From NCBI RefSeq assembly GCF_014646055.1, contig NZ_BMMS01000037.1, positions 1 to 63,077 of the forward strand: a stretch of DNA of 63,077 nucleotides, in the 5' to 3' direction. Positions 3,306-31,541 of the stretch are shown here, piece by piece. Both the position numbers and the translations under genes were made by a program. Within the stretch, counting starts at the first letter, position 1, and every line of letters begins with the position of its first letter. A model generated the notes under the pieces. It was not told the origin of the DNA. It did no database searches and worked only from the letters and a program-made list of their open reading frames with translations. This DNA is from Wenjunlia tyrosinilytica. Lineage in GTDB: Bacteria; Actinomycetota; Actinomycetes; Streptomycetales; Streptomycetaceae.

Positions 3306-3537
3306 CCTGCTTCACCAGGGGCAATCCGCTGTTGGTGCGTCGTAGGGTCAAAGAGGATGGATCACGTCCGGCCGCTGTGAGCATCCGGGCGAGGCTGAGG
3401 GAAGTCCCTGGCCCCGTTCGTGGTGACGGCGTGCCGGGCCGGGTCCATGGCCTGTGCCCTACCAGCATCACGGGGGAGAACGCTCATGAGCATCGGGGGA
3501 GTGGAGCCGCCGCTCCGCGAGGACGAGGAGAACCGCA

Positions 3538-3828
3538 GTGACGCAGCTCAGCAGGCACGGGCAGACGGCTCGGGAGTATTGGGAGACGTACAGGCCGCAG
3601 GCCCTGGAGTCGCTGGGGAGCCCGGCGCAGCAGGAGGCCTACTTCCAGGAGTTGGACCTGCGGGTGACGGAGAAGATCGGGCAGTTGGCGACCGAACTCC
3701 TTCAGAAGCTGCCGATGGAGCAGCGCGCGGCGGCCCGGCGGTCGACCCGGTCGCAGGCGCAGGAGCTGGTGTACGCGGAGGAGATCTGGCTGGAGAAGGA
3801 GCCGGGGACGGAGCACCGGGAGATGTAG
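3538..3828 (+). CDS. Small TnpV-like protein preceding the giant gene
   Basis: A 96-aa helical protein with a GTG start after an AGGAG-like site. The sequence REYWETYRPQALESLG, a middle LDLRVTEKIGQLATELL and a final QAQELVYAEEIWLE resemble the TnpV family found on conjugative transposons; this is family-level recognition only. Codon third positions are GC-rich in this frame and not in the overlapping frame of the following gene, so this is the real gene here. It ends at 3828, just where the conserved N-terminal region of the giant methylase-helicase begins in the -1 frame. The two are probably translationally linked. Confidence 0.6.
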   Translation: MTQLSRHGQTAREYWETYRPQALESLGSPAQQEAYFQELDLRVTEKIGQLATELLQKLPMEQRAAARRSTRSQAQELVYAEEIWLEKEPGTEHREM

Positions 3829-3917
3829 CTCCGCCTCGTTTCCGACCGGAGAGTCAGCGGGACCTCGCCCCTGCCGGGCAGAGTGAGCGGGCCCGCGCCA
3901 ACCTCGCGGCTCTGGAG

Positions 3918-6900
3918 ATGCTGCGGGCCCTGGAGCGCGAGCAGCGCCCGGCCACCGAAGAGGAACAGCGCACCCTCGCGCGCTGGTCCGGCTGGGGCGC
4001 TCTGCCGGTCATCTTCAACCCGCGGCCGGCGCGTGCCGCGTTCGGCCCGGACGAGGATGAGCGCTTTGAGCGGGCGGCCGCGCGTTGGGACGCCGTCAGT
4101 GACCTGCGCGAGCAGATCCGGGCACTCCTCTCCGAGGATGAGTGGGCGGCGGCCCGCCGCAACACCATCAACGCGCACTACACCGACGCCGACCTGGTCC
4201 GCTCGATCTGGGGCGCGGTCCGCGGGCTCGGCTTCACCGGCGGCCGCGTCCTCGAACCGGGCTCCGGCTCGGGTAACTTCATCGGCTTCGCGCCGATCCT
4301 GACCTCGACCCCGGTGCAGATGACCGGTGTTGAGGTCGAGCCGACCACCGCGGCGATTGCCCGCCACCTGTACCCGGACGCCGAGATCATCACCAGCGGC
4401 CTCGAAGAGGTCCCGCTTGCCGACGGTGCTTTCGACGGCGTGGTCGGCAACGTCCCCTTCGGCAGGTACAAGCGGTTCGACAAGGTCCACAACGCCGACC
4501 TGTCGCTCTCGATCCACGACCACTTCGTGCTGAAGTCGCTGTACGCCACTCGCCCGGGCGGCGTCGTCGCGCTCATCACCTCGCGCTACACCATGGACGC
4601 GGAGAAGCCGGATGCGCGCGAGCGCATGTACCAGCTCGGCGACCTGGTCGGCGCGGTCCGTCTGCCCGCCCGGGCGCACATGGCGGCGGCCGGGACGGAC
4701 GTCGTCACCGACGTGCTGTTCCTGCGGCGCCGGATGCCGGGCGAGGAGCCGGGGGACAAGACGTGGCTGACCTCCCGCAAGCGGGTGCTGCCTGGCCACG
4801 ATGACGAACTAGCGGTCAACAGCTACTTCGACGCGCACCCCGAGTACGTGCTCGGCGAGCTGCGTGCGGGCTCCCGGGAGTGGGGGCCGGAGGTCACCGT
4901 CGTCGGTCGTACCGACCAGGCGCCGGCCGAATCCCTGGCGGCCGCGGCCGCCGCCATCGCAGTGGAGGCCCGGGCCGCCGGGCTGACGGCGGCCGCCGAT
5001 GAGCGCACCGAGCCGGTACAGACGATCGTCACCGGCGGCACCGAGGGTGCGCTCGGGCTGGACGCCGAAGGCAACCCCACGATCATCGACGGCGGCCGCC
5101 CGGTCCCGCTGGAGATCCACCCCGACCAGCGCGAGCAGCTCGTCCAGCTCATCCGCCTCAAGGGCCTGACCCTGGCCCTGTACGCGGCGGAGGCGGACAC
5201 CCCCGAGCCCGGCGAGACGCCGCAACTCGCGGCGCTCCGCGCGGAACTGCGGGTCGCCTGGCGGGACTACCGCAAGAACCACCCACCGCTGACCAAGCCG
5301 CGCCAGCACTACATCTTCACCCCGCCAGAGGCCCGCGCGCAGGCCACGGCGCAGGGCCTGAAGGACGTCCCAGCCGCGTGGAAGCAGCGCACGGCGTTCG
5401 CCTGGATTGACGACGACCCCGACGCCTCGCTGCTGTTCGGCCTGGAGGAGTGGGACGAGGCGACAGGCAAGGGCACCGAGCAGAAGGTGCTCCTGTCCCG
5501 CGTCCTGGAGCCGCGCACCCTGCCGTCCCGGGCCAACAGTCACGAGGACGCCATCGCCCTGGCGATGGAGTACGACGGCGGCCGCCTGGACATGAGCCGG
5601 GTCGCCAGCCTCCTGGGGCTGGACGAGGAAAGCGCGGCCGCGCAGTGCGCGGACGCCGGTCTCGCCTACCGCGATCCGCTCCAGGGCGACGCCTGGGAGC
5701 CCCGGCACCGCTACCTGTCCGGCAACGTCCGCGCCAAGCTCGCGGCTGCGCGGGAGCGGGCCGCCGAGGACCCGACGTTCCAGGGCAACGTCTCCGCCCT
5801 GGAACGGGTCCAGCCCGCCGACCTGGCGCCGTCGGAGATCAAGGCGAAGATCGGCGCCCCGTGGATTCCGGTCGACGTCTACAACGACTTCCTCGCGCAT
5901 CTCGGCTTCGACGACGCCAGTGTGCTGCACGCGGGCGGCACGGTGTGGGAGGTCCGCGGCGCCAAGAACGGCGACCTGGCGCGCACTGAGTGGGGCACCG
6001 GCTCCCGCCCCACGCAGGATCTGTTCACGTCGCTGCTGCGGCAGACCGAGTCGACTATCCAGGTCACCTACCGCGACCGCGAGGGCCGGACCTACGTCGA
6101 CAAGGAGGCCACCGACGCGGCCCAGGAGAAGGCCAAGCTGATCGCGGAGGCCTTCGAGGACTGGGTGTGGGACGACGAGACCCGCGCGGCCCGCCTCGCG
6201 GGGATCTACAACGAGCAGTTCAACAACATGGTGCTGCCCGAGTATGCGGGCTCCGCGCTGACCCTTCCCGGTCTGATCAGTGACTGGACGATGAAGGAGC
6301 ACCAGAACGCGGCGATCCGCCGGATCGTCAACGAACCGACGGCGTTGCTCGCGCACGTCGTCGGCGCGGGCAAGACAGCGACCATGGCCGCCGGCGCGAT
6401 GGAGCTGCGCCGCACCGGCCTGGCGACCAAGCCGTGCCTGATCGTCCCCAACCACATGCTCAAGCAGTGGTCGCGCGAGTTCCGGCAGCTCTACCCCAAC
6501 GCCAAGATCCTGGCGATCACCGCGAGCGACCTGAACAAGAAGCGCCGCGCGAAGTTCATGGGCCGGATCGCGGGCGGCGACTGGGACGCCGTGATCCTCA
6601 CCCACGAGGCGTTCACCCGGGTGCCGCTGCGCCCCGATACCCAGCGCGCCTACCTCGACCGCGAGATGAAGTCTCTGCGCGACCAGCTCGACGTCGCCGC
6701 CGAAGCCGGGATGCACCGCAACACGGTCAAGCAGATCGAAGAGTCCCTGGCCAACGCGGAAGCAAAGCTCCAGCAGCAGATCGACTCCATGGACGACGAG
6801 ATCGGCGTCTTCCTGGAAGACACCGGCATCGACTACGTGTTCCTGGACGAGGCGCACGAGTTCAAGAACCTGCGCACCGTCTCGGCGATCCCCGGCGCCG

Positions 6901-9900
6901 CCATCCAGGGCTCGGCGAAGGCCACCAAGCTCCACATGGTGCTCGACTACCTGCGCACGACCAACGAGTCCGAGCGCGTGGCGACCCTGGCCACCGGCAC
7001 CCCGATCGCCAACTCGCTGACCGAGGCCTACGTCCTCAAGCGCTACCTCGCCCCGCAGCTCCTGGAGGAGATGGGGCTCGACGCCTTCGATAACTGGGCG
7101 GCCACCTTCGGCGAGGTCGTGAGCCAACTGGAGCCCGACCCCAAGGGCGACGGCTACAAGTACAAGGCCCGCTTCAGCCGCTTCTTCAACGTCCCCGAGC
7201 TGATGGCCGCCTACCGGGTCTTCGCCGACGTGCAGATGGCGGAAGACCTCGACCTGCCCACCCCGCCCGTACGGGAGAACGAGGACGGACAGCGCGGCGA
7301 GACCATCCTCATCCCGCCCACGCCGGCGCAACGGCAGTTCATCAAGGAACTGCCGCACAAGCCCTGGGTGCGCAAGCCCGGCGGCGTCCTGAAGGCCCTC
7401 GGCGAAGGCCTGCGCGCCTCCGTCGACCTGGACCTGGTCGACGCCACCGAGGCCCTGCGCAACCTGGGCCTCAACATCACCGCCGAGGACATCAGCAGTG
7501 AAGACCCGACGTACGGCGGGCGCGTGCTGGACATGGAGAAGGTCCGCGACCTCGCGGACGCCGCCGCCGTCGACATGCGCAGCGTCGGCGGCAGCAAGGA
7601 GATGGGCAGCAAGATCCCGTACGCGGCCGAGAAGATCGCGGAGATCTGGCAGGAGACGAAGGACATCGTCTACCCGGTCTCCGGGGACAACCCGACCCCG
7701 CAGGATCTCCCCGGCGGCCTCCAGCTCGTCTTCCTGGACGAGGGCACCCCGGGCAGCACCGCCAAGCACGCCGCCGACCTGTACGCGGACCTGCGCGACG
7801 AACTGGTCGCCAGGGGGATGCCGCGCGAGTCCATCCGCTTCATCCACGAGGCGGGCACCGACCGCAAGAAGGAGAAGCTGTTCGCTGACTGCCGTGCCGG
7901 ACGCGTCCGCGTCTTGATCGGAAGCACGCAGAAAATGGGAACCGGGACCAACATCCAGGACAGGGCAGTCGCGCTGCACCACCTGTCCTACCCGTGGCGG
8001 CCGGCGGACATGGCCCAGCGAGACGGCCGGATCGAGCGGCGCGGCAACCTCAACGCCCCCTGGATCGACAACACCCCCGACCACGTCCGCATCCTGTACT
8101 ACATCACCGAGCGGACCTTCGATGAATTCCGGCTGACCACCCTCGCCCGCAAGGCGCGGTTCATCGGCCAGATCCAGCGCAAGGACTTCAGCGCCCGCGA
8201 GATCGAGGATATCGGCGCCGACGCCATCAACCTCGGCATGCTCTCCGCCCTGGCCTCCGGCGACCCGGCGATCCTGCAACTCGCCGAGGCCACGGCAGAA
8301 CGCGCCCGGCTCCAGGGCCTGGCCCGAAGCTGGGACCGCCAGCAGGACACCCGCACGCAGCAGCTCAGCGACATCGACGAATTCCTCGGCCGCGCGGACG
8401 TCGCCCTGGAAGGCATGCGGGCAGCGGCCCCCAACCGGCGCCCGACCACCGGCGACGACTTCGCCATGACCGTGGGCGACGCCACGTATCGCAGCCGCGA
8501 CGCGGCCGCGAACGCGCTCGGGGCCCGGATGGTCGCCATCGCCGGGGACCAGTCGATCCGGCCCGGCGAGCGTGTCCCGGTCGGCACCTTCGGCGGGCAG
8601 GACTTCCACGCCGAGATCGCCTACGGGGCCAGCGGCCGCCGCCAGATGCGCCTGCGCTTCGGCTGGGGCTACGTCGTCCCCCTGGGCCAGCGCGAGGACC
8701 GCGCCCAGTGGCAGGCCTCCTCCGTCACCCAGTCCAACGGCCGTGGCGCCATCCAGTCGTTGGAGCACTTCCTCAACCACCTGGACGACGACCTCAGCAA
8801 GCTGGAGAAGTCGACCGAGTCCCTTCGCGGCCGCCGCGAAGAGATCGCCGACAACCTGCGGCCGAAGGACGAGAACCCCTACCGCATCCAGGCCCGCTCC
8901 AAGGAGCGGGAAGAGAAGGCGCTGGGCAAGCTGGTCGTCGCCAACGAGAAGGAGGCCGCCCTCGCCGAGCGGGTCGAACGCGCCGCGAGCGTCAACCAGG
9001 ACGCCGCCGAGGAGGTCAACGAGGAACTCGAAGCGCTGCGCGGGCACATCGCCAGCCTGCGGCAGATCATCGCTGACGAACACGAGGTCCAGGCCCGGGC
9101 CCGGGGCCTGGTGCAGGACGAGAACCGCCCCGACGACGCGCCCAACCCTGACGCACCCACCCCTGCGGAAAAGGCCGCCGCGGAAGCGTTCGCCCAGGAC
9201 ATGGCCGATGCGTTCTTTCCCGAGGGCAGTACCGAATCGCCAACGGCGAGCCCGTCCACGGGCGGCGCCGAGCCCCGGCAGGAGGACCCGCCGGCCGAAG
9301 CACAGGACCAGCCCGGCCCGGACGCCGAGCCCGTACAGAGTGACCCTGAGCCCGCCGCCCCCGGTGAACCCGAAGGGGAGCCATCCCCCGAACCGGTGAC
9401 GCCCGAGGCCTCCGGCGACAGCGAGACTGCCGAGCAGGAGTCCAGGGAGCAGCAGTTCCAGGAGGCCGTGGACGACCTCTTGTCCGGTGCTGCGGAGCCC
9501 GAAGGCAACGCGCCCGATGCAGGAGACGGCCAGCAGGGCACACCCGACGCGGCCCCCGACGACGACCCACGGATTGCCGTCCCCGCGGGCTACCAGCCGT
9601 TCAGCGACAGCTCGGTGGAACTGGTGCCGGGCGACGTGGTCCGCGAGGGCCGACCGCAGTACATGGAGGATCGGCACCTCCAGTACCGGACGGTCGTCAT
9701 CGTGGAAGGCCCCGACCCCTGGGACGGCTACTACATCTGCCGGCCACAGAACCGCAGTGGGACCAGCCGCGTTCACCCCCGGGAGATCGTGGCCGTGCCC
9801 GACGGCTCCCGCCTCCTGGAGTCCAGCGCACCCGTTGCGCAGGAGGAGCCTGCCCCCGCGCCCCCGGAGGCTGCGGACGAGGAGCAGGCGCCGCTCCAGG

Positions 9901-12900
9901 ACCTGATCGACCTCTTCGGCGACCGGGTGTCGGTGACCCACATCGGCGGCGAACCCACCGGCCAGCAGCCCGAACCGGATGCCGCAGAAGCTGAGGCGCC
10001 GGAGCAGGGCCCCGAGCAGCAGGAGCCCGACCTCCCGACCGCAGCGGAGCCCGGCGCCGCCCCGGCGGCAGAGGAGACGACAGTCGCCCGGGACGAGCCG
10101 GAGCAGCACACCGGCCCCTCCCCGGCAATGGCGCGCTGCGCGGCCGTCCTGCGGTACTACGAACCGCTCTTGCAGCGGCACAAGCTCTCCGGCCGGGAGG
10201 CCGTGGCGTTCATCGACCGGCCCGGCGTCGGCTACCGGTACGAGCCGGGCAACCCGCTGCCCGACCTCATGGCCGAGATCGGCAAGGTCGCCGAACGCGT
10301 CGGCGGTTCCTACCGCGTCAGCTACAACGAGTGGGTCAACTACTCCGTCGGCGAGCGCCGACAGCAGCAGAGCGACACCCTCACCAACCTGAACCTCGAC
10401 CTCATGACCCTGTACTCCGGGGAGACCGAGCCACTGCTCATGGTCGACCTGGAGGCGATCCTCGCCGCGCCCGGGACAGTGGTGGAGCTGCCCTCCGAGG
10501 CGGAGATCGAAGCCGAGGAGGCGGCCGCAGCCCGCATCGTGATCAATCACGATGCCGAGGGCACCGAGGTCCGCAACACCCCGCGCGGCGGGGACCAGCG
10601 CATCCGGGACGCGCTGAACGACCTGGACTTCAACTGGTCGCGCCGTCAGCAGAAGTGGTACATGCGCCGCGACACTCCCTTCGAGGACCGCGACACCGCC
10701 GTACAGGCTCTGCGCGCCGCCTTCGAGCGGCTGGGCGTCGCCTACACCTACAACGGCCCCGACCCGCAGGACACAGAAGAGACCGCCGAGGCCGCGCCAC
10801 AGGAGACCGAAGCCCCGACCGGGCCGGTACAGAGCGAGCCTGCTGCGGACGTCTCCGCCACGCATGCCGCGGCCATCGCACCCGTCCGCCAGTCCGCCGG
10901 ATGGGCCATCATGGCAGTGCTCAGCGACGACCAGGTGCGCGGGCTGGTCAGTGCCGTCGCGGTCGACGGCCAGACGGTCAGCACCCAATCCCGGCGCCTG
11001 CTCGGGGACCGCGTACGGCAGTGGATCGCCGAGCAGCGGCAGACGCCGACGACAGCCTTCTACGCCTCCGACAGCAGTGAGCTGCCCTCCGCCCTGCGCG
11101 GCGGCGGCGACGTGCGCCTATCAACCCACATCAACGGGCTGACCATCGACCAGGGCAACGTGTCCTTCCGGACCCCGTGGGAACACCTCCCTGCCTGGAT
11201 CGACGCCGCCGTCGCGCACGACACTGCCACCCGCTCCAGTGACCTGCCTGCGTGGCGCTACGGCCGTCTGGACCACGAGATCCATTTCCGGATCGACGAG
11301 CGCAACGAGTCCGCAGCCCTGGCACTCCGCGCCCTGGCGACCGCATTGCGCGAGACCGCCCCACCCACCGACGAACAGTTCGCCGAAGCACGGGCCAAAT
11401 TCGCCCCCTTGGCTACGGCCGCCGACGCTGAGCCCGAGCCGGGCACGGAGGACCCAGAACTCGACCTGTCGGCCGCCGAAGAACCAGCCGACGCACCCGC
11501 CGACACCATGGAGCCGCAGGACGGACCCGAGGACTCGGACACCGACGGCACCGATACGGTCCCCGACGCCGAGGACACGGTGATCGTGCAGACCCCGGAC
11601 GGGCCCGGCACGGTCATCGGCACCGATGACGGCGACCTGGTGCTCGTCACCACCGGGTCCGGCACCCGGGTCTGGGAGGTCAGCGAGGTCCAGTGGCCCG
11701 ATGGCGCTGCCCGGCCCGAGAACACCGAACGGGCGGTGAAGGAGCGCCAGAACGCCGCCGATGCCGCGCAGGCCGCCACCGCCGAGGGCATCGAGCTGCG
11801 CTACGGCAACGGCAACAGGCTGGTCGACCTGGACACCGAGGCCGGGCACGGCACAGTGGTCGACGCCGACGGCGCGGTCATCGGCTGGGTCCGCGCCCGG
11901 ACCGGTGACGACGGCCGCCGCTACTGGTGGGCGCAGGACGCCCGCGGCGGCACCCCCGACGACATGCCCTTCCATGAGGCGCTGCCTGCCTCAGCGGGCG
12001 TCCCGGCGATCCGGGCCGCCGGGACCATCCGCTCCGAGCTGCACGCGGTCAAGGAACCGGCACACCGCGCCCCCATCCCTGCCGAGTACGCCGCCCGCGA
12101 GGTGCGGCTGACCACGGCTCAGGTCCCGGAGCTGCGCCGCCTGGTGCTCGATGCCACCTACTCGGACGGCACCCCCATCGAGCCGCCGGAGTGGGTGGCC
12201 TCGCACCGCAAGTACGTCCTGAACACGGCACAGATGCGGGCCCTCGGTGATGCGGCGCAGGCCGCCGCCGACGCCTTCCCCGGTGTCACCGCGGAGGAGC
12301 GACGCACCGCCCGCGTGCTGCGCAACGCCGCCGAGCGCTTCGAGTTCGAGGTGTACGACACCGCCCGGTGGCGCGCCACCATCGCGCCGATCGGCGAGAC
12401 GGACCCCTACGTCGGGCCCTACCAGCCCCGCCCCCGGCCGGAGACACCCGACGCACCGCAGGAGACGGCGGACGTACCCGCCCCGGCCCCGGAGCTCGCG
12501 GCGACCGAGACGCAGACCTCCGCCGGGACCGAGGCAGAGCCCCCCGCCCCGGCGGACACCGACACCCCGGAACCGACCGCAGAGACGGAGGCCGCCCCCG
12601 CCGACCCGCAGCCCGAGGACCGCGCGGACACGGCACCGGACACCCCGGCACCGGACCCCGCGCTCACGGCGGACACACCGCCGGGGCCGACCGGTGCGGA
12701 ACCCCAGGACGCCGGAGCCGATGACGAGGAGACACAGCTCGACCTCTTCCCCAGCGAGACGCCGGAGGCCCCGGCGCCCGCACGTCGGCCCGGCAGCCGC
12801 CGGCGGACCGGCCGGAAGGAACCCGCCATCCACCCCGGCGCCGAAGGCGGCCCCGAGGACGGACGCCTGGGCGTGTACGGGCACGCCGGTCACGGCGTGT

Positions 12901-15900
12901 GCGACCGGTGCGGCACCCCCGACACCGAGCGCTACACGATGGTGTGGAGCTGGCACCTACGGACCGAGGACGGCGGTGCCATGGCCGCCGAGTGCGGGAG
13001 CTGTGTCGAGCTGACCACCGGCCTGTCCTACAAGGAGTACCGGCGCCAGGCCGACGTCGCCGAGGCGCGGCGCGGCGGCCGCCGCATCGTGCCGACTCCG
13101 TACGCGAAGGGCGACGTCACCGGGAGCCGCACGGCCGAGAACGAGTGGACCTACGTCCACCAGCCCACCGGCAGCCGGTACCGCCTTGCGGAGGAAACCC
13201 CCAGCGGGTACCGGGGGTTCGTCCTGCGGGACCTGCACGGCATCTCCCAGGGCACGGGCGTCTCCACGAATTCCGGCTACGAACTGGCCGAACGGGCGGC
13301 CCTGGGCCGCACGGCAGAGACCCACCCGAACGACAGCGACGACTGGGTGTTCTTCGGCTACCGCACCAGCAAGGTGACGCTCCACGAGGGCGAGAGCATC
13401 AACACCCAGCACCCCAACGCCCCCCGCCGCAACCGCGCCCCGTTCGAGCACGGACCGCGCTGGGACATCACCGTCAGCGGGACCGACTACCAGGTGGAGA
13501 TGGTCTACCAGAAGGGCCAGCCCGGCGAGGACGGCCACCGCCTGGAGGTCACCGCCCCGGACGGTGCGAGCGCCCGCTATGTGGAGTGGGACGGCGTGCT
13601 GGAGTGGGCACGCGAGCGTGTCCGGGCCCCGGAGCCGGAGCAGGCGGCCGCGCCCCTCGCCGCGCCGCTCGCCGAAGCCGAAGAAGCGCTCACCACGGCG
13701 GAGGGCATCCGCGACGCTCTCCAGAACCGCAGCACCACCAGCGCCCTTGTCCGGGCGCGCGAGGCCTGGGACCGGGCCCGGTCCCACTACGAGGCCGGTC
13801 GGCTCACCGAGGGAGACGGCCACCTTGCCACGGCGCGCAGTCACGCGATCTGGGCCCGGTTCCGGGAGAGCGCGCGTGCCGACTTCCAGCCGCTCAAGGC
13901 TGCCGCGCGCCGCTTCCACGACGCGGTGGACGAGATCCTCTACCCGGGCGGCGCGGGATGGCGGCCGACGGTGGGCGACTACGTCCGCTCCCGGCACCAG
14001 TACGTGCCCGAGTCCGAGGGCTTCTGGATGAAGGTCACGGCGATCAGGGCCGACGGCATTCGCGTCCAGTCCGGCTCGACCGGAGACGCCAAGACCGTGT
14101 TGCAGCCCGCCGACCTCGGGCCGCACGCGGATCTGGCCTGGCAGGAACAGCCCTTCCGTGCTCCCGGCGAGCCGAGGGCATCGGACCAGGAGCGGCGGGC
14201 CCACCTCGGCATGCCGCCGCAGGAGGCGGCGCCCGAACCCGGCCTCCCGGAACCAGCGGAGACGCAGAGCGCGCCCGGCGACTCGGAAGAGGAGCAACTG
14301 GACCTGTTCGCCGCCACGGCACCGGAGGCGCCCGCCCCGCCGGCCACGCCGGAGGACACCGCGGCGTCCGGCACCGAATCATCGGGCGAGTACAGCTTGG
14401 GCCTGGTCGACGGGGAGAGCCTGACGTACCGGGGTGACTGGGACGGCCGCTACGAGATCACCCTTCCGGGCACCAGTTACCTGCTGTTCCTGCCTTCCAT
14501 CGAGTACCGGCGCACGAAGTGGGCCGTCGCGTCGAACGACGGGCCGGACACCATGTCCCCGAAGCGGCTGCGCCGGTTCGATGATCCGAACGAGATCATG
14601 CCGTGGGCGAGGGCTCACGCCTCGAAGCGGCAGACCGGCTACGTCTTCCGCGACGGCGCATGGACCGAGGCGCCGGAGACCATCGCACCGGAGCCTCCGA
14701 CGGAGGACGCGGCCGCCGAGGACGGACAACTCCCGCTCCTCAGGGCCGACGACACCGCGCCCGCTCCCGACTCGGCGGCCGGAGAGGACCCGGCCGCCCC
14801 CGACGCATCGCCCGCTGAGGCGTCCGCGCCGGACGACGCGCCCGCGCCGGACGACGCGGACGAGGACCCCGACCAGCAAGACCAGGAGGAAGCAGTGGCA
14901 GACGAGCCGGTACCCACCTCCGTCGCGACGGACGTCCCGGCCGTCGACCCGCCCGTGGAAGACCTCCCTGCGGAAGCCCCCGCACAGGAGGTAGCCGAGT
15001 CCACCGTGGACGTCGAAGACCCGCCCGCGCCCCGGAGCTTCACCGAGACGTTCCCGCTCGCCACCGACGCGAGGTATCAGCTCCTGCTGACCAGTTTCGA
15101 AGGCGAGAGCCCCCACGAGGGCGAGCTGCGGTACGGCGAGGCCACCATTGCTGCCGTCCGACTGTCCGCCTCCGGGCGCTGGTTCGCCCGGATGACGGTC
15201 GACGGCATGCCTGCCGACGTCACGGACCTGAACGGCTCACCGCTGGACGCGGCGCATCAGGGCGCGGTGATGTTCGCGGTCATCACCGGGGAGCCGTACG
15301 GCGAACCGCCGGTCGCGGCCGACGCCCGGGGGCCGCTCTCGCGGGCGGACGTGCTGCGCGTCGAACTGCGCTCCGCCGTCGAGCAGCACCTGCGCACCAT
15401 CACCGTGGCGGCCGCGCGGGTGACCCCGGACTACGGACAGAACCCCCAGTTCCAGGCCCTGAGCACCCAGCTCGGGCGACTCGGTGCCGCCGACGTTGAG
15501 TACCACGGCTCGCGGCAGATGGCCTCGAACCTCACCGCGGTCCAGGAGGCGGTCAACGCCTGGGGGGCCGCGCTGCCGGTGGACCCCGCCCTCGATGAGC
15601 GTCAGCACCTGGCCTTCCCGCTCCTGAACCTGCTGCACGAGACCATGCGCCTGCACGGACGCCTCCAAGCCACCCTGGACGCGATGGTGGCCGAACGCGC
15701 GGCCGCCGAAGGGCAGGAGGCCGCGGCCGCCGTCCCCGCGTCGGCCGAGCCCGCCCGGGACGACAACGCACAGCAGACTCCGGCCCCGGCGCCCGAACCG
15801 GCCGACGCACCCGGCCCGGAGCAGCCCGCCGACGAGGAGTCGACCGACCAGTTCGCCCCGAGCCGCGAACCGGAGAACCCCGAGATGGCCACACACGCCC

Positions 15901-17051
15901 AACCCGCGACACCCGAGACGCCGGAGGCGGAGGAAACCCCGCAGGCTGAGCAGGAGACCGCCGCCGCCCCGTCCGCGCCGGATGCGGCGGAACCCGCCAC
16001 GGAGGCCTCCGCCGACGGCGAGCCCGCGCCGAGCGCGGACGACACGGAGCCCGCCCCGGCGACGGTCGAACCGCCCGCCGCTGCGGAGCCGTCGGGGGAG
16101 CTGCCACTGTGGACCGGCCCGGCGGACTCCGACCCGGCGGAGGACACGGTCGACGTCGTCGCCGACTTCCATGCGGTCAAGGATGCATGGGACGAGCACG
16201 TTCCCGCCGACAAGGGCACGGGCGACGACCTGTTCGCCGAGGTGGAGGAAGAACTGCACCGGCTGGAGGCGCTGTTCGCCGAAGCCGTCGCCAAGGTGAA
16301 GCCTGCCCCCGAGCCGGAACCCGCCCCCTCAGCGGCGCCGGCCGCCGCGGTGCAGAGCACCGAGTCCGACTCGGCGGCCGCGCCGCCGCCCGGCGAGCCG
16401 GAGGCGGCCCCCAAGGACCCCGACCCGCAGCAGTCGGCGGACGCGGTGAACTCGGCGCTGCGCGAGGCCGACGCGCACGCACCCGACCTCCGGGACCTGC
16501 CGGAGTGGCAGCGCATCCAGAGCGTGCGGGGCGCGTTCGGCCACCTGATGCGTGTCATGAAGGAACGGGCGGGCGAGCACTTCGGCAAGCTCATGGCCGA
16601 CGGCCGCGTCTCCGACTTCGTCCGCCGGGTCTCGATCGCCGCGTGCGAGAAGGTCGCCGGGTGGGCACAGGCCGCTGCGGACAAGCTGCGCCGCCCCGAC
16701 GAACGCGGTACGAACAAGCGCGAGGAGCTGCCGAGCGCGGAGGCACTGCTGCGGCTGGGAGATGCGGCCTTCGAGTACGGCGGTCCCCGCCGCAGCGGCG
16801 GTGGCACTCCGCCCCCGCCTGCGAACGGCGCGCCGGACGCGATCGACATCCCGGCGATGCGCAAGATGGGGGAGGCGCTGGACCGGCCCATGCCAGGCGC
16901 CACCAAGCGCGTCTCCACGGCGGCCGCGCGGGGCCGGTCGACCACCGCCAAGCGGGGAGGGAAGAAGACCACGCCCGGCACCGACCAGGCCGAACACCTC
17001 CGCCGCGGCGGCGCCGAGCAGCAGCAGACCCGCAAGCCCAACCAGCGCTGA
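3918..17051 (+). CDS. Giant N6-adenine methyltransferase / SNF2-type helicase (DarB-like)
   Basis: About 4,377 aa from the ATG at 3918. Counting from it: an N6-MTase domain with motif I VLEPGSGSGNF near residue 111 and motif IV NVPF near 178 (canonical NPPF/Y); a superfamily 2 helicase with GAGKT at 816, DEAH at 977, a TGTPIANS motif III and a QRDGRIERR motif VI near 1370; then about 2,900 residues of Ala/Pro/Glu linkers joining small modules, including a CxxC...CxxC zinc-finger-like unit (12,898-13,010). QLDLF occurs at 12735-12749 and 14295-14309. This architecture occurs in phage DarB and in conjugative elements, where it protects incoming DNA from restriction. Conserved sequence starts about 84 bp upstream of the ATG without a normal start codon, so the true start is unresolved. 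Confidence 0.9.
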   Translation: MLRALEREQRPATEEEQRTLARWSGWGALPVIFNPRPARAAFGPDEDERFERAAARWDAVSDLREQIRALLSEDEWAAARRNTINAHYTDADLVRSIWGAVRGLGFTGGRVLEPGSGSGNFIGFAPILTSTPVQMTGVEVEPTTAAIARHLYPDAEIITSGLEEVPLADGAFDGVVGNVPFGRYKRFDKVHNADLSLSIHDHFVLKSLYATRPGGVVALITSRYTMDAEKPDARERMYQLGDLVGAVRLPARAHMAAAGTDVVTDVLFLRRRMPGEEPGDKTWLTSRKRVLPGHDDELAVNSYFDAHPEYVLGELRAGSREWGPEVTVVGRTDQAPAESLAAAAAAIAVEARAAGLTAAADERTEPVQTIVTGGTEGALGLDAEGNPTIIDGGRPVPLEIHPDQREQLVQLIRLKGLTLALYAAEADTPEPGETPQLAALRAELRVAWRDYRKNHPPLTKPRQHYIFTPPEARAQATAQGLKDVPAAWKQRTAFAWIDDDPDASLLFGLEEWDEATGKGTEQKVLLSRVLEPRTLPSRANSHEDAIALAMEYDGGRLDMSRVASLLGLDEESAAAQCADAGLAYRDPLQGDAWEPRHRYLSGNVRAKLAAARERAAEDPTFQGNVSALERVQPADLAPSEIKAKIGAPWIPVDVYNDFLAHLGFDDASVLHAGGTVWEVRGAKNGDLARTEWGTGSRPTQDLFTSLLRQTESTIQVTYRDREGRTYVDKEATDAAQEKAKLIAEAFEDWVWDDETRAARLAGIYNEQFNNMVLPEYAGSALTLPGLISDWTMKEHQNAAIRRIVNEPTALLAHVVGAGKTATMAAGAMELRRTGLATKPCLIVPNHMLKQWSREFRQLYPNAKILAITASDLNKKRRAKFMGRIAGGDWDAVILTHEAFTRVPLRPDTQRAYLDREMKSLRDQLDVAAEAGMHRNTVKQIEESLANAEAKLQQQIDSMDDEIGVFLEDTGIDYVFLDEAHEFKNLRTVSAIPGAAIQGSAKATKLHMVLDYLRTTNESERVATLATGTPIANSLTEAYVLKRYLAPQLLEEMGLDAFDNWAATFGEVVSQLEPDPKGDGYKYKARFSRFFNVPELMAAYRVFADVQMAEDLDLPTPPVRENEDGQRGETILIPPTPAQRQFIKELPHKPWVRKPGGVLKALGEGLRASVDLDLVDATEALRNLGLNITAEDISSEDPTYGGRVLDMEKVRDLADAAAVDMRSVGGSKEMGSKIPYAAEKIAEIWQETKDIVYPVSGDNPTPQDLPGGLQLVFLDEGTPGSTAKHAADLYADLRDELVARGMPRESIRFIHEAGTDRKKEKLFADCRAGRVRVLIGSTQKMGTGTNIQDRAVALHHLSYPWRPADMAQRDGRIERRGNLNAPWIDNTPDHVRILYYITERTFDEFRLTTLARKARFIGQIQRKDFSAREIEDIGADAINLGMLSALASGDPAILQLAEATAERARLQGLARSWDRQQDTRTQQLSDIDEFLGRADVALEGMRAAAPNRRPTTGDDFAMTVGDATYRSRDAAANALGARMVAIAGDQSIRPGERVPVGTFGGQDFHAEIAYGASGRRQMRLRFGWGYVVPLGQREDRAQWQASSVTQSNGRGAIQSLEHFLNHLDDDLSKLEKSTESLRGRREEIADNLRPKDENPYRIQARSKEREEKALGKLVVANEKEAALAERVERAASVNQDAAEEVNEELEALRGHIASLRQIIADEHEVQARARGLVQDENRPDDAPNPDAPTPAEKAAAEAFAQDMADAFFPEGSTESPTASPSTGGAEPRQEDPPAEAQDQPGPDAEPVQSDPEPAAPGEPEGEPSPEPVTPEASGDSETAEQESREQQFQEAVDDLLSGAAEPEGNAPDAGDGQQGTPDAAPDDDPRIAVPAGYQPFSDSSVELVPGDVVREGRPQYMEDRHLQYRTVVIVEGPDPWDGYYICRPQNRSGTSRVHPREIVAVPDGSRLLESSAPVAQEEPAPAPPEAADEEQAPLQDLIDLFGDRVSVTHIGGEPTGQQPEPDAAEAEAPEQGPEQQEPDLPTAAEPGAAPAAEETTVARDEPEQHTGPSPAMARCAAVLRYYEPLLQRHKLSGREAVAFIDRPGVGYRYEPGNPLPDLMAEIGKVAERVGGSYRVSYNEWVNYSVGERRQQQSDTLTNLNLDLMTLYSGETEPLLMVDLEAILAAPGTVVELPSEAEIEAEEAAAARIVINHDAEGTEVRNTPRGGDQRIRDALNDLDFNWSRRQQKWYMRRDTPFEDRDTAVQALRAAFERLGVAYTYNGPDPQDTEETAEAAPQETEAPTGPVQSEPAADVSATHAAAIAPVRQSAGWAIMAVLSDDQVRGLVSAVAVDGQTVSTQSRRLLGDRVRQWIAEQRQTPTTAFYASDSSELPSALRGGGDVRLSTHINGLTIDQGNVSFRTPWEHLPAWIDAAVAHDTATRSSDLPAWRYGRLDHEIHFRIDERNESAALALRALATALRETAPPTDEQFAEARAKFAPLATAADAEPEPGTEDPELDLSAAEEPADAPADTMEPQDGPEDSDTDGTDTVPDAEDTVIVQTPDGPGTVIGTDDGDLVLVTTGSGTRVWEVSEVQWPDGAARPENTERAVKERQNAADAAQAATAEGIELRYGNGNRLVDLDTEAGHGTVVDADGAVIGWVRARTGDDGRRYWWAQDARGGTPDDMPFHEALPASAGVPAIRAAGTIRSELHAVKEPAHRAPIPAEYAAREVRLTTAQVPELRRLVLDATYSDGTPIEPPEWVASHRKYVLNTAQMRALGDAAQAAADAFPGVTAEERRTARVLRNAAERFEFEVYDTARWRATIAPIGETDPYVGPYQPRPRPETPDAPQETADVPAPAPELAATETQTSAGTEAEPPAPADTDTPEPTAETEAAPADPQPEDRADTAPDTPAPDPALTADTPPGPTGAEPQDAGADDEETQLDLFPSETPEAPAPARRPGSRRRTGRKEPAIHPGAEGGPEDGRLGVYGHAGHGVCDRCGTPDTERYTMVWSWHLRTEDGGAMAAECGSCVELTTGLSYKEYRRQADVAEARRGGRRIVPTPYAKGDVTGSRTAENEWTYVHQPTGSRYRLAEETPSGYRGFVLRDLHGISQGTGVSTNSGYELAERAALGRTAETHPNDSDDWVFFGYRTSKVTLHEGESINTQHPNAPRRNRAPFEHGPRWDITVSGTDYQVEMVYQKGQPGEDGHRLEVTAPDGASARYVEWDGVLEWARERVRAPEPEQAAAPLAAPLAEAEEALTTAEGIRDALQNRSTTSALVRAREAWDRARSHYEAGRLTEGDGHLATARSHAIWARFRESARADFQPLKAAARRFHDAVDEILYPGGAGWRPTVGDYVRSRHQYVPESEGFWMKVTAIRADGIRVQSGSTGDAKTVLQPADLGPHADLAWQEQPFRAPGEPRASDQERRAHLGMPPQEAAPEPGLPEPAETQSAPGDSEEEQLDLFAATAPEAPAPPATPEDTAASGTESSGEYSLGLVDGESLTYRGDWDGRYEITLPGTSYLLFLPSIEYRRTKWAVASNDGPDTMSPKRLRRFDDPNEIMPWARAHASKRQTGYVFRDGAWTEAPETIAPEPPTEDAAAEDGQLPLLRADDTAPAPDSAAGEDPAAPDASPAEASAPDDAPAPDDADEDPDQQDQEEAVADEPVPTSVATDVPAVDPPVEDLPAEAPAQEVAESTVDVEDPPAPRSFTETFPLATDARYQLLLTSFEGESPHEGELRYGEATIAAVRLSASGRWFARMTVDGMPADVTDLNGSPLDAAHQGAVMFAVITGEPYGEPPVAADARGPLSRADVLRVELRSAVEQHLRTITVAAARVTPDYGQNPQFQALSTQLGRLGAADVEYHGSRQMASNLTAVQEAVNAWGAALPVDPALDERQHLAFPLLNLLHETMRLHGRLQATLDAMVAERAAAEGQEAAAAVPASAEPARDDNAQQTPAPAPEPADAPGPEQPADEESTDQFAPSREPENPEMATHAQPATPETPEAEETPQAEQETAAAPSAPDAAEPATEASADGEPAPSADDTEPAPATVEPPAAAEPSGELPLWTGPADSDPAEDTVDVVADFHAVKDAWDEHVPADKGTGDDLFAEVEEELHRLEALFAEAVAKVKPAPEPEPAPSAAPAAAVQSTESDSAAAPPPGEPEAAPKDPDPQQSADAVNSALREADAHAPDLRDLPEWQRIQSVRGAFGHLMRVMKERAGEHFGKLMADGRVSDFVRRVSIAACEKVAGWAQAAADKLRRPDERGTNKREELPSAEALLRLGDAAFEYGGPRRSGGGTPPPPANGAPDAIDIPAMRKMGEALDRPMPGATKRVSTAAARGRSTTAKRGGKKTTPGTDQAEHLRRGGAEQQQTRKPNQR

Positions 17052-19082: not shown

Positions 19083-19108
19083 GGGCGCCACTCTATGAAC
19101 CCCTCAAC

Positions 19109-19245
19109 GAACTTTACGGAACAGACCGGCCATCTCCGCCAGGAGCCCGCGTCGGCCAAGGTCTGTACGAACGTGCGGAGTGCGGCGCGAGGCGGCGCCC
19201 CACCCTGGCCCTTGGGCTGGGGAGCTGGTCTGTTCCGTAAAGTTC
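19109..19245. repeat. Pair of 19-bp perfect inverted repeats upstream of recombinase-like gene
   Basis: GAACTTTACGGAACAGACC at 19109-19127 reappears inverted at 19227-19245, with 99 bp between. The AT-rich arms stand out from their surroundings. They may be recombinase-binding arms or the ends of a small element. Confidence 0.55.
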
Positions 19246-19272
19246 GGTCGGTAGTCCCGTTCCGCTCAAGTG

Positions 19273-20299
19273 GGGGCGCCGGTAAGAACCCTGTCAGGAG
19301 CCGCAAACGACGGCGATAGTTGCCTTGTCAGTCGGACTTCCGGAGGGCTCGCAGCACCAGGGGGCGTGACATCGCACCGTGGACTCGCTGTGCCAGTTCG
19401 TTGGCGCTGGCGCCGGTCTTCTCCTGCTCGGCGCGCAGAGCGACGCCGAGCAGGACGCGGGCCTCGTCGACCTTGCTCAGCGCCTCCAGGACGGCGTCGA
19501 CGGCCTCGGAGACGGTGGGCGGCGGTCCGGTGGTCAACGAGTTGACCACCTCGGCGGCAGGCTCCGTCTCGTCGGGACTCTGGTCCTGATCACCCTCGGG
19601 GTGGTCAACGGATTGACCAGTTGCGGCGGGTGCGCCCGGGTAGCGGAGGTTGGAGAGGTCGAGGACCTCCCGCTGCCATGGGGCAGGCTCGGGGTATCCG
19701 ATGGACTTCGGGTCGGCAAGACCGCGGTTGACCTCGTCGCGGTCGAATGTCGCTGGGTTGTACTTGTGCAGGCCCCATTCGCGCAGTTCGCGGTAGCGGG
19801 GTCCCTTGCGAGCCCGGATCGCGCGCAGGGTGCGTTCGTAACCGAGTGGCCCGCCGCAGTCCTCCGGCGGGCAGGCGCGGCGGCCGGCGGTGCAGCGCGG
19901 GTAGTGGGTGTTCGGGGCGGGCCGGTGGATCTTCTCCACGATGATGTGGTGAACCCAGTGGTCGCCGAAGTCGTACACGTACCCGGCGCCGGAACCCACC
20001 TCGGGCAGCATCTGCGCCACGGTGTGCGCGGACGCCTCCTTGCCGTTGTGTCCGTATGTCTCCCAGCGGGCGCCGAACTCGTACAGGTGGGCGTCATCCC
20101 AGCCCATGGCGACCTGGATGACGGCGTGCAGTCCGGACAGTGGGGTGTGCGAGTAGACGTGGATGCGCCGCCACACCTCCGGCTCGATCCCCGGCATTGA
20201 CACTCGTAGTTGGTGCACGCTCTCCACGACGGCAACCGTATCGGCAGAGCGCCCCGCATCGCCGTTTGCGGCTCCTGACAGGATTCTTACCAGCACCCC
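19273..20299. mobile_element. Transposase-less Tn3-type element (TIME-like) carrying a PRiA4_ORF3 gene
   Basis: Terminal inverted repeats of 37 bp (19273-19309 and 20263-20299) match at 34 positions and start with GGGG, as Tn3-family ends do. The element is flanked on both sides by the same 5 bp, AAGTG (19268-19272 and 20300-20304), the target duplication size of Tn3-family transposons. Only one gene (19328-20227) is inside and there is no transposase or resolvase. It is therefore a non-autonomous passenger element that needs a transposase supplied in trans. The intact ends and perfect duplication suggest recent insertion. Confidence 0.85.
19328..20227 (-). CDS. Plasmid pRiA4b ORF-3-like protein
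   Basis: About 299 aa from GTG 20227; upstream in-frame sequence runs into the terminal repeat and is not coding. The PRiA4_ORF3 domain covers roughly residues 5-180: QLRVSMPGIEPEVWRRIHV, PLSGLHAVIQVAMGWDDAHLY, YVYDFGDHWVHHI, and CTAGRRACPPEDCGGPLGYE with its cysteines. The family includes the second gene of IS1096, and its biochemical role is unknown. The C-terminal 90 residues are an acidic linker and a helical tail. It is the sole passenger of the Tn3-type element. Confidence 0.85.
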   Translation of the reverse strand: MESVHQLRVSMPGIEPEVWRRIHVYSHTPLSGLHAVIQVAMGWDDAHLYEFGARWETYGHNGKEASAHTVAQMLPEVGSGAGYVYDFGDHWVHHIIVEKIHRPAPNTHYPRCTAGRRACPPEDCGGPLGYERTLRAIRARKGPRYRELREWGLHKYNPATFDRDEVNRGLADPKSIGYPEPAPWQREVLDLSNLRYPGAPAATGQSVDHPEGDQDQSPDETEPAAEVVNSLTTGPPPTVSEAVDAVLEALSKVDEARVLLGVALRAEQEKTGASANELAQRVHGAMSRPLVLRALRKSD

Positions 20300-20377
20300 A
20301 AGTGCAGGCAGCCACCGTGCTGGAGATGGGCTTAGCCGTTCATCCGGTGCGGGGCTCTGGCGTTGTGCGGGGACGGG

Positions 20378-30089: not shown

Positions 30090-31541
30090 TCAGTCCTTCA
30101 CCAGCGGGTTGTAGCCGAGCGGCAACTGGGCCGCGAAAACGGCGGCCTGGGCGCCATACGCACTCCTCATGCGGATACCTCGGGTCGCCTTGACCGCGCG
30201 GGCCAGCTCCTGGCGCGCGGCGGGCAGCTCGGCCGTGCTGCGGGCGGTTGCGGTCACCATGAGCGTCCAGTCGACCACCTGGGAGCCGCTGGCCACCTGA
30301 GCGGCGGCCTTCTCCGCGCGCTGGGCGTCGGCCCGCTGCGACCACTTCGCGCGGCCCTTGACCTCTGCGGTCGCCTGCGCGCGCTGGTGGGCGTGGCTGA
30401 TCTCCCGTTCCAGCACCGCCTCGCCCTCGTAGGGGTCGAGCACGCGGTACGCAATGGTGATGCGCCGCTGGTAGCGGCCGGGGGCCAGCAGCGGCAGCAG
30501 CACGCTGTACGGGATGGGCCGACGAGGCATCTCGCGCAGTACCCAGCTGATGGACACCCCGCCGTCGTGCGCGTACTCCTCCCAGCCGTCATCGGCGGCC
30601 TGCGGCCCGCACTCACTCCAGCTGAGTTCTTCGAACTCACGGTCCCTCGCATTGAAGACCTCGGGGTCGTACGCGCTGCGGACGATCCGGCGCAGGTCGA
30701 TGTCGGTGGCCCGGCGCTCGATGTCGGTGCCGGTGCCGGACAGGTCCAGCCCGTCGACCACCCGCAGCGACTCGGCGACCTGCTCGGCAAGGTCCGCCGG
30801 CGGATTGGCGCTCGCGTTCGGGTCCACCGTGACGCTCATCCAGGGCGCCACGCTGGCGGTGGCGTGCGGGGTGGTGCGGACCAGTTCGTCAATGATCTTC
30901 TTGGCCAGCTGCGGCGCGTGCGGGTCCTTGCGGGCCTTTACGTCGTCACCGAGGGCCTCCCCCGCTCCCGGGGTGATCTGGATGGTCACGCTCGCGCCCT
31001 TGACCTGCTCGTCCGTGCTCATCGCATCGAGCACGGACGACCAGGTGCGCAAGCTGCTCTGCACCGCCCCGGTGGGCGCCATGAGGCTGCCGCCCGGGGC
31101 GAGGAGAGTGGTGATGGTCATGTACCCGGTGGTCCGGTCGTGGACGACGCCGACGGACCGGCCGGTGGTCGGGTCGTGAGCCTTGATCAGGGTGGAAGAG
31201 GCTCCGACGCCCGGCAGGTCCAGGGCGTACGGGTGCGGCAGCAGCGTCCGCCGGTAGGAGGTGGCGTCGAACCGCGCCGCCCGCCGCCAGGAGAGCTTGG
31301 CCCAGTAGTAGGCGAGCGCGGACATGCCGTGGCGCTTGGCGGCGGCCAGGGCGAACACTGCGCCCGTCACCGGCAGGGTGACCAGCAGGGAGAGCGGGGC
31401 CTGTGTGGCGATCAGGCCGTCCGCCGTCAGGACCACAGCCGCGATCATCGTCGCAGTCCGGGACAGCCCGCCGAAGCCGAAGCTCCGGCGGGCACGGAAG
31501 CCCTCGACCATCAAGGTCTTCGGCACTTCATGGGCGGTCAC
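30090..31541 (-). CDS. SCO6880-family T4SS component
   Basis: A 483-aa protein. The N-terminus has a PrgI-like membrane hairpin (TATMIAAVVLTADGLIATQAPLSLLVTLPVTGAVFALAAA, residues 30-70). The rest is soluble (SYRRTLLPHPYALDLPG, GYMTITTLLAPGGSLM), resembling the N-terminal half of VirB4 proteins and the Streptomyces SCO6880 family. It probably forms the inner-membrane base with the neighbouring ATPase. The GTG overlaps the stop of the upstream membrane protein (GTGA). Confidence 0.85.
   Translation of the reverse strand: MTAHEVPKTLMVEGFRARRSFGFGGLSRTATMIAAVVLTADGLIATQAPLSLLVTLPVTGAVFALAAAKRHGMSALAYYWAKLSWRRAARFDATSYRRTLLPHPYALDLPGVGASSTLIKAHDPTTGRSVGVVHDRTTGYMTITTLLAPGGSLMAPTGAVQSSLRTWSSVLDAMSTDEQVKGASVTIQITPGAGEALGDDVKARKDPHAPQLAKKIIDELVRTTPHATASVAPWMSVTVDPNASANPPADLAEQVAESLRVVDGLDLSGTGTDIERRATDIDLRRIVRSAYDPEVFNARDREFEELSWSECGPQAADDGWEEYAHDGGVSISWVLREMPRRPIPYSVLLPLLAPGRYQRRITIAYRVLDPYEGEAVLEREISHAHQRAQATAEVKGRAKWSQRADAQRAEKAAAQVASGSQVVDWTLMVTATARSTAELPAARQELARAVKATRGIRMRSAYGAQAAVFAAQLPLGYNPLVKD

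Follow-up and report, generated by a model that had tools for sequence, protein, structure and literature searches.

A transposase-less Tn3-type cassette of Wenjunlia tyrosinilytica carries a PRiA4_ORF3 gene with palindromes in its own coding sequence

A contig of the actinomycete Wenjunlia tyrosinilytica contains a unit of 1027 bp between its outer end bases (19273–20299), whose Tn3-type ends of 38–40 bp leave space for a single gene (Pfam–ID: PF07929). This unit is almost certainly a mobile insertion cassette (MIC) of the Tn3 family, an already known kind of element. The new aspect of the cassette lies in its passenger: a PRiA4_ORF3 gene whose coding sequence contains palindromes resembling binding sites. 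The best explanation as a whole, a MIC which was moved in trans and whose passenger protein binds its own gene, is in our opinion likely. The window, by which the whole analysed stretch of 63,077 nucleotides is meant, comprises bases 1–63077 of contig NZ_BMMS01000037.1 in an assembly of 172 contigs and 8.49 Mb (GCF_014646055.1). The features of the cassette are listed in Table 1.

Table 1 Cassette features with their positions in the window
Feature	Position	Strand	Basis or remark
Left target duplication AAGTG	19268..19272	.	direct reading of the letters
Left terminal inverted repeat, Tn3 type, GGGG...GGTAAGAA...CTGTCAGGAGCCGCAAACG	19273..19312	+	repeat search (40 nt, 90 %) and recurrence of the subgroup
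Lone passenger gene (GTG start) for a PRiA4_ORF3 protein of 299 aa with C-terminal extension	19328..20227	-	open reading frame and Pfam
C-terminal module	19331..19522	-	predicted long helix 239–271, HTH-like helices 275–282 and 288–296
Palindrome 2, GGTCAAN4TTGACC	19532..19547	.	linker codons VVNSLT, frame 2
Palindrome 1, GGTCAAN4TTGACC	19603..19618	.	linker codons GQSVDH, frame 0
PRiA4_ORF3 domain, PF07929	19733..20218	-	Pfam E 4.7e-51, residues 4–165; predicted fold matches PDB 2i1s
Putative −10 box TACGGT	20235..20240	-	7 nt ahead of GTG
Right terminal inverted repeat	20260..20299	-	repeat search
Right target duplication AAGTG	20300..20304	.	direct reading of the letters

The two end arms of 40 nt are complementary at 36 positions (90 %), and reading of the arms confirmed the 37-bp inverted ends with 34 identical positions described in the first-pass annotation. 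Its further statements on the anatomy also held: both AAGTG copies were read directly, one PRiA4_ORF3 gene of 299 codons lies between the ends, and tblastn with TnpA and TnpR of the end subgroup gave no match inside the cassette, which is thus distinct from an autonomous Tn3-family transposon with tnpA within its ends. At the local base composition the same pentamer is expected on both flanks by chance with P ~0.002. The gene starts 32 bp from the right end and stops 15 bp from the left end. A defence-system match to the cassette was not obtained with PADLOC.

The cassette is located between a Prim-Pol gene on one side and a frame of 303 aa without a Pfam match on the other, and because of this position it seems to interrupt neither of the two. 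Other scanned neighbours encode a conjugative coupling protein, a serine recombinase (1.5 kb away) and a zeta-toxin-like protein. These few neighbours, together with relatives of both cassette flanks in Streptomyces plasmids, suggest that the contig is plasmid-like. Just left of the cassette (window 19108–19246) there is a stretch of 139 bp with perfect inverted ends of 20 bp (CGAACTTTACGGAACAGACC), which is present as a single copy in the host assembly. Stretches with 72–76 % similarity to it exist in four plasmid records, next to a left-flank gene homologue in three of them, about 10 kb away from it in the fourth; the 139-bp stretch may be a separate miniature element. Elsewhere in the window (3420–17051), an open frame of 4543 codons has SNF2/helicase-type matches between residues 956 and 1542 and possibly encodes a very large helicase-type protein.

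The ends of the cassette belong to a subgroup which is found repeatedly in the same bacterial order. A 29-base core pattern, searched with up to three mismatches in 391 genomes of the order, occurs at 44 places in 33 genomes including the host, compared with none for the backwards pattern used as control. The two ends of the window cassette itself excepted, all of these places (42) differ from the core by 2–3 mismatches. The objection raised in advance, that the ends might recur nowhere, therefore falls away. Among plasmid records (E ≤ 0.1) the right end of the window cassette has 28 matches, all in Streptomyces and 27 of them over 80 % of the length; the end of the tnpA-bearing element L031 has 60, of which 40 extend over 80 % and 57 are from Streptomyces.

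A search of 32 loci yielded 19 elements with paired ends. Exact flanking duplications of 5 bp, each with a chance probability of 0.002, are present in seven of them and an agreement of four out of five bases in three more, but 7 of 19 is no unbiased rate, since the loci were picked by hand, partly for having two listed ends, and single ends were left out of the count. Among the tnpA-bearing elements, exact duplications flank L031 (AAGAA; tnpA coverage 1024 of 1024 residues), L164 (GATCT; 1014 of 1024), L168 (AAGCT; 960 of 1024) and L158 (AAGCT; only 584 of 1024). The TnpA of L031 is uninterrupted, with 1024 aa and a Tn3 DDE domain (E 6e-121). Ten of the 19 elements contain no tnpA. Besides the window cassette with its AAGTG, exact duplications are found in this group at a 735-bp element of the Streptomyces coelicolor plasmid SCP2 (perfect TGGAC) and at the 1442-bp element L167 (TACTT), which retains short tnpR remnants. 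The SCP2 element spans the start of its record (loci L155 and L156, record positions 30799–31317 and 1–216). Further elements without tnpA are L030 (3190–5518), with an ADP-ribosylglycohydrolase gene and no duplication, L165, with an HTH-AAA-TPR gene and flanks agreeing at four of five positions, and L154, with a lone resolvase gene and no duplication. The L030 element directly adjoins remnants of a different Tn3 tnpA. Other elements with TGTCAGGAGCC inner ends were absent from a pattern scan of the genome contigs, and a looser form of this inner-end pattern gave no match in viral contigs.

Mobilisation in trans, which the first-pass annotation had claimed, is presumed here from tnpA-bearing relatives with similar ends: over 38 bp the cassette ends show 4–5 differences to those of L029 and L031. 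An autonomous partner with exactly the cassette's ends was not found in the pattern scans of genomes and viral contigs. In the same assembly, an element of the subgroup with tnpA, a TPR gene and tnpR occupies 6.4 kb of contig C42 (43302–49685), and the end subgroup is thus present in the host. The tnpA of this element has an in-frame TAG at codon 896, through which the tblastn alignment to the TnpA of a relative continues. Its flanks are not duplicated, and its ends differ from those of the window cassette at 5 of 38 positions. Because of the TAG, the differing ends and the missing duplication, it probably did not move the cassette in its present form. Other transposases of the host were rejected as partners. 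A long Tn3 transposase on contig C86 is ~26 % identical to the subgroup TnpA and has no end within 12 mismatches on its 8.6-kb contig; the stretches surrounding four further host places with Tn3 transposase matches likewise contain no end within this limit.

A second copy of the cassette is carried by plasmids of Streptomyces NBC_00873 and NBC_00842, which count as one copy because the two records are identical across the 2.6 kb compared. It is 84.3 % identical over element positions 52–1027, and the similarity breaks off exactly where the right end terminates. The 2-kb flanks of the window cassette gave no blastn match to the 3 kb on either side of the second copy. Its right end, 31 bp from the gene, shows four mismatches when compared with the closest reference end. 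The left end, as judged by eye, is decayed, and no duplication is recognisable. The element is thus found at more than one place with different immediate flanks. About 10 kb from the second copy there is a 76 % relative of the sequence 0.8–1.15 kb right of the window cassette, so that common descent of the replicons, and with it some dependence between the two copies, is possible. The left flank is matched by 18 plasmid records and the right flank by 25, but the only record which matches both has them 83 kb apart. An empty site with a single AAGTG, as the first-pass annotation had proposed to look for, did not turn up among the plasmid records when both flanks and the sequence around the second copy were used as queries.

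At the thresholds applied, no ends lie near the close homologues of the passenger gene in Kitasatospora, in genome G022 and on the plasmids of NBC_00212 and NBC_01590. Since homologues without Tn3 ends exist, the gene was probably captured by the ends. It is also possible, though we do not favour it, that a Tn3 transposon with a PRiA4_ORF3 passenger lost tnpA and tnpR by an internal deletion and stayed mobile in trans. Such losses would be in line with the tnpA remnants within the subgroup, which cover 233 of 1024 TnpA residues in L163 and 288 of 1024 in L166, and with the TPR passenger beside the tnpA of L029. However, no tnpA-bearing element with a PRiA4_ORF3 passenger is known among those examined, the gaps between gene and ends are short on both sides of the window copy and on the right side of the second one, and neither copy contains a tnpA or tnpR remnant.

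The N-terminal PRiA4_ORF3 domain of the passenger reaches 173.4 bits in comparison to a curated cut-off of 26.6 and is the sole PF07929 match in the 8.49-Mb host assembly. Its predicted fold matches that of the Methanosarcina mazei protein MM3350 (PDB 2i1s; Foldseek E 2.1e-16, sequence E 4.6e-26). MM3350, however, comprises 178–188 residues, hence it has no C-terminal module, and it is titled a protein of unknown function; its fold gives no indication of what the passenger does. The following linker (residues 178–233) is mostly predicted with low confidence, pLDDT being below 50 at residues 178–189 and 193–233. For the C-terminal module the block-mean pLDDT is 60–84, with only 2 of 23 aligned sequences reaching into the module; the alignment used 23 of 32 sequences and left out one with a stop in its translation and eight more. 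The Pfam family HTH_31 matches the module below threshold (E 0.13), and the predicted helices weakly suggest that it is helix-turn-helix (HTH)-like. Furthermore, the protein has one NCBIfam match under the cut-off and one weak PHROGs match to a family of unknown function (E 0.017). In the loci L347, L354 and L355, the same C-terminal module follows a different N-terminal domain, which contains cysteine and has no Pfam match that exceeds the cut-off. Upstream of the gene, the six compared homologues, the window included, all have TACGGT at a distance of 6–7 nt from the GTG, suggestive of a leaderless promoter moving together with the gene.

The coding sequence of the linker contains two palindromes (GGTCAANNNNTTGACC), both of which are present in each of the six homologues (window, L067, L068, L069, L032 and L074) and are kept in a seventh, broken one (L073). 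The proteins of the homologues compared are 68–83 % identical. In the six, palindrome 1 encodes G-Q-x-V-D-H in frame 0, whilst palindrome 2 encodes V-(N/K)-x-L-T in frame 2, and they require some codons uncommon in these genes (GGT, CAA, GTT, TTG). Invariant alignment columns amount to 27 of 32 in the palindromes, 19 of 109 in the remaining linker and 467 of 900 over the full length of the gene (palindromes versus remaining linker, Fisher test with columns treated as independent, P 5e-12). One DNA motif retained in two frames, within a linker that is otherwise poorly conserved, is a clear example of selection acting on the DNA, or on the RNA, of a coding region. The linkers on the other N-terminal domain hold palindromes as well: L347 has both in the same frame, and L354 has one exact and one imperfect copy. 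A function as resolution (res) site of a Tn3 element is ruled out by the homologues without Tn3 ends, which also have the palindromes.

The palindrome pattern occurs exactly twice, and always within the module gene, in the host assembly, in the genomes G022 and G537 and in each of six plasmid records. G536 and G003 have three occurrences each, and the additional sites are at most 4 kb from the module gene. Of these 11 genomes or records, four (G536, G022, NBC_00873 and NBC_00842) contain the backwards control once. Copies of GGTCAAN4TTGACC outside the module gene were seen at positions 2239 and 3743 of L354 and 1310 of L355; that at 2239 is inside a frame matching tyrosine integrases, and that at 3743 within a longer palindrome. 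A stricter pattern, GGTCAANNCGTTGACC, had 37 matches in 200 genomes. Ten of these lie within module genes or close to them; the other 27 compare with 23 for the backwards control. A palindrome scan of viral contigs yielded at least 120 stretches. Among 80 PRiA4_ORF3 loci kept from a protein search, one has the module and the palindromes, and all 79 without the module, which are distant relatives (34–49 % identity) and no matched control, lack the palindrome.

The simplest reading of these sequences, and our best guess at about even chances, is that the module binds the palindromes inside its own gene. A more far-reaching version, in which we have somewhat less confidence, regards the gene as self-targeting: the two linker palindromes would be the only genomic binding sites of its HTH-like domain, and this dual-coding module of protein plus site would have been shuffled onto at least two unlike N-terminal domains on actinomycete replicons, captured by Tn3 ends and used to mark the carrier DNA for partition, copy control or transposition control.

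The palindromes could instead act in the mRNA, where hairpins or mutual pairing would steer translation or decay. Folded singly, each palindrome forms a hairpin that is more stable than those of almost all shuffled sequences (z −4.4 and −2.9), and over 106 nt the best structure is that with the two palindromes paired together (z −2.0). We nevertheless regard an action in the RNA as unlikely. The arms are invariant in the six homologues and do not covary, although some compensatory pairs might be expected at their degree of identity; the sole broken stem, the second site of L354, shows no compensating change, and L354 and L355 have palindromes outside the gene too. Still less probable is that the palindromes serve a different factor, such as a site-specific recombinase by which N-terminal domains are exchanged on the module. 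Two unlike N-terminal domains are indeed joined to the same linker and module, and integrase genes are situated within a few kb in L067, L073 and L347 (annotated), L354 (Pfam) and L032 (translation, by eye). However, with 6-bp arms around a 4-bp spacer the palindromes are short for the core site of a tyrosine recombinase, and the scanned neighbours of the window copy include no tyrosine integrase. That the ends are mere chance inverted repeats next to an ordinary, immobile plasmid gene, in favour of which the missing empty site could be cited, is so improbable that it was rejected, because the end subgroup recurs with tnpA and duplications and the second copy stops at the same base of the right end.

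Taken together, a Tn3-family transposase from another element of the same subgroup would bind both ends of the cassette and paste it by replicative transposition, the 5-bp duplication AAGTG being the trace left. The passenger would once have been an ordinary plasmid gene which was later enclosed between Tn3-type ends, and it seems to bring its own promoter. In its product, the PRiA4_ORF3 domain would be joined through a disordered linker to an HTH-like domain recognising the two palindromes in the linker's own coding sequence. The protein may accordingly act mainly on its own gene, either by autoregulation or by forming a small nucleoprotein mark on its carrier replicon.

These data suggest that, on actinomycete plasmids, one subgroup of Tn3 ends moves genes as transposase-free units. 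Further units of this kind are perhaps L030 and L165, whose flanks are not exact duplications, and the gene content of plasmids may be shuffled by cassettes which annotation overlooks. In addition, the PRiA4_ORF3 family is widespread, and its self-sited variant offers a handle in the form of a named DNA sequence as candidate binding site. Literature searches among open-access papers listed none that, judged from title and beginning of the abstract, deals with the cassette, the end subgroup or the palindrome module.

A link of the PRiA4_ORF3 family to mobilisation, drawn by the first-pass annotation, finds support in the cassette itself; genes of this type were already known in transposons. Twelve transposons of the ISAzba1 group, as described, have a pRiA4_Orf3-like gene in common, but they possess their own Mutator-like transposase and 8- or 9-bp duplications (PMC3942029), in contrast to the 5-bp duplication and the single PF07929 gene of the cassette. 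From Streptomyces itself, Tn4556 of S. fradiae is reported as a Tn3-type transposon with 38-bp ends and 5-bp duplications; likened to the cassette by this description and not by the end letters, it differs by its own transposase and resolvase and its 6.6 kb (PMC6403206). Tn3 elements are also reported to harbour toxin-antitoxin pairs (PMC7157771).

The cassette had also been compared to TIMEs, with which it shares the absence of a transposase between Tn3-type ends. TIMEs and TIME-RES, whose transposition was shown in the report on them, have in common with it 38-bp ends of the Tn3 family and 5- or 6-bp duplications (PMC4133298). A TIME of that report, however, measures 262 bp, and TIME-RES carries a resolvase and res, whereas the cassette has 1027 bp and one other gene, neither resolvase nor res (PMC4133298); TIMEs with resistance genes are described as well (PMC13367494). 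A gene-bearing unit of this size fits MICs better. Tn3-family MICs were described in Xanthomonas, where a passenger likewise lies between long Tn3-type repeats without transposition enzymes and needs a transposase in trans (PMC6304161). The likeness is one of anatomy and not of end letters: the passengers of the Xanthomonas MICs, as presented there, are effectors in another host group (PMC6304161), whereas the present cassette carries a PRiA4_ORF3 gene with embedded palindromes.
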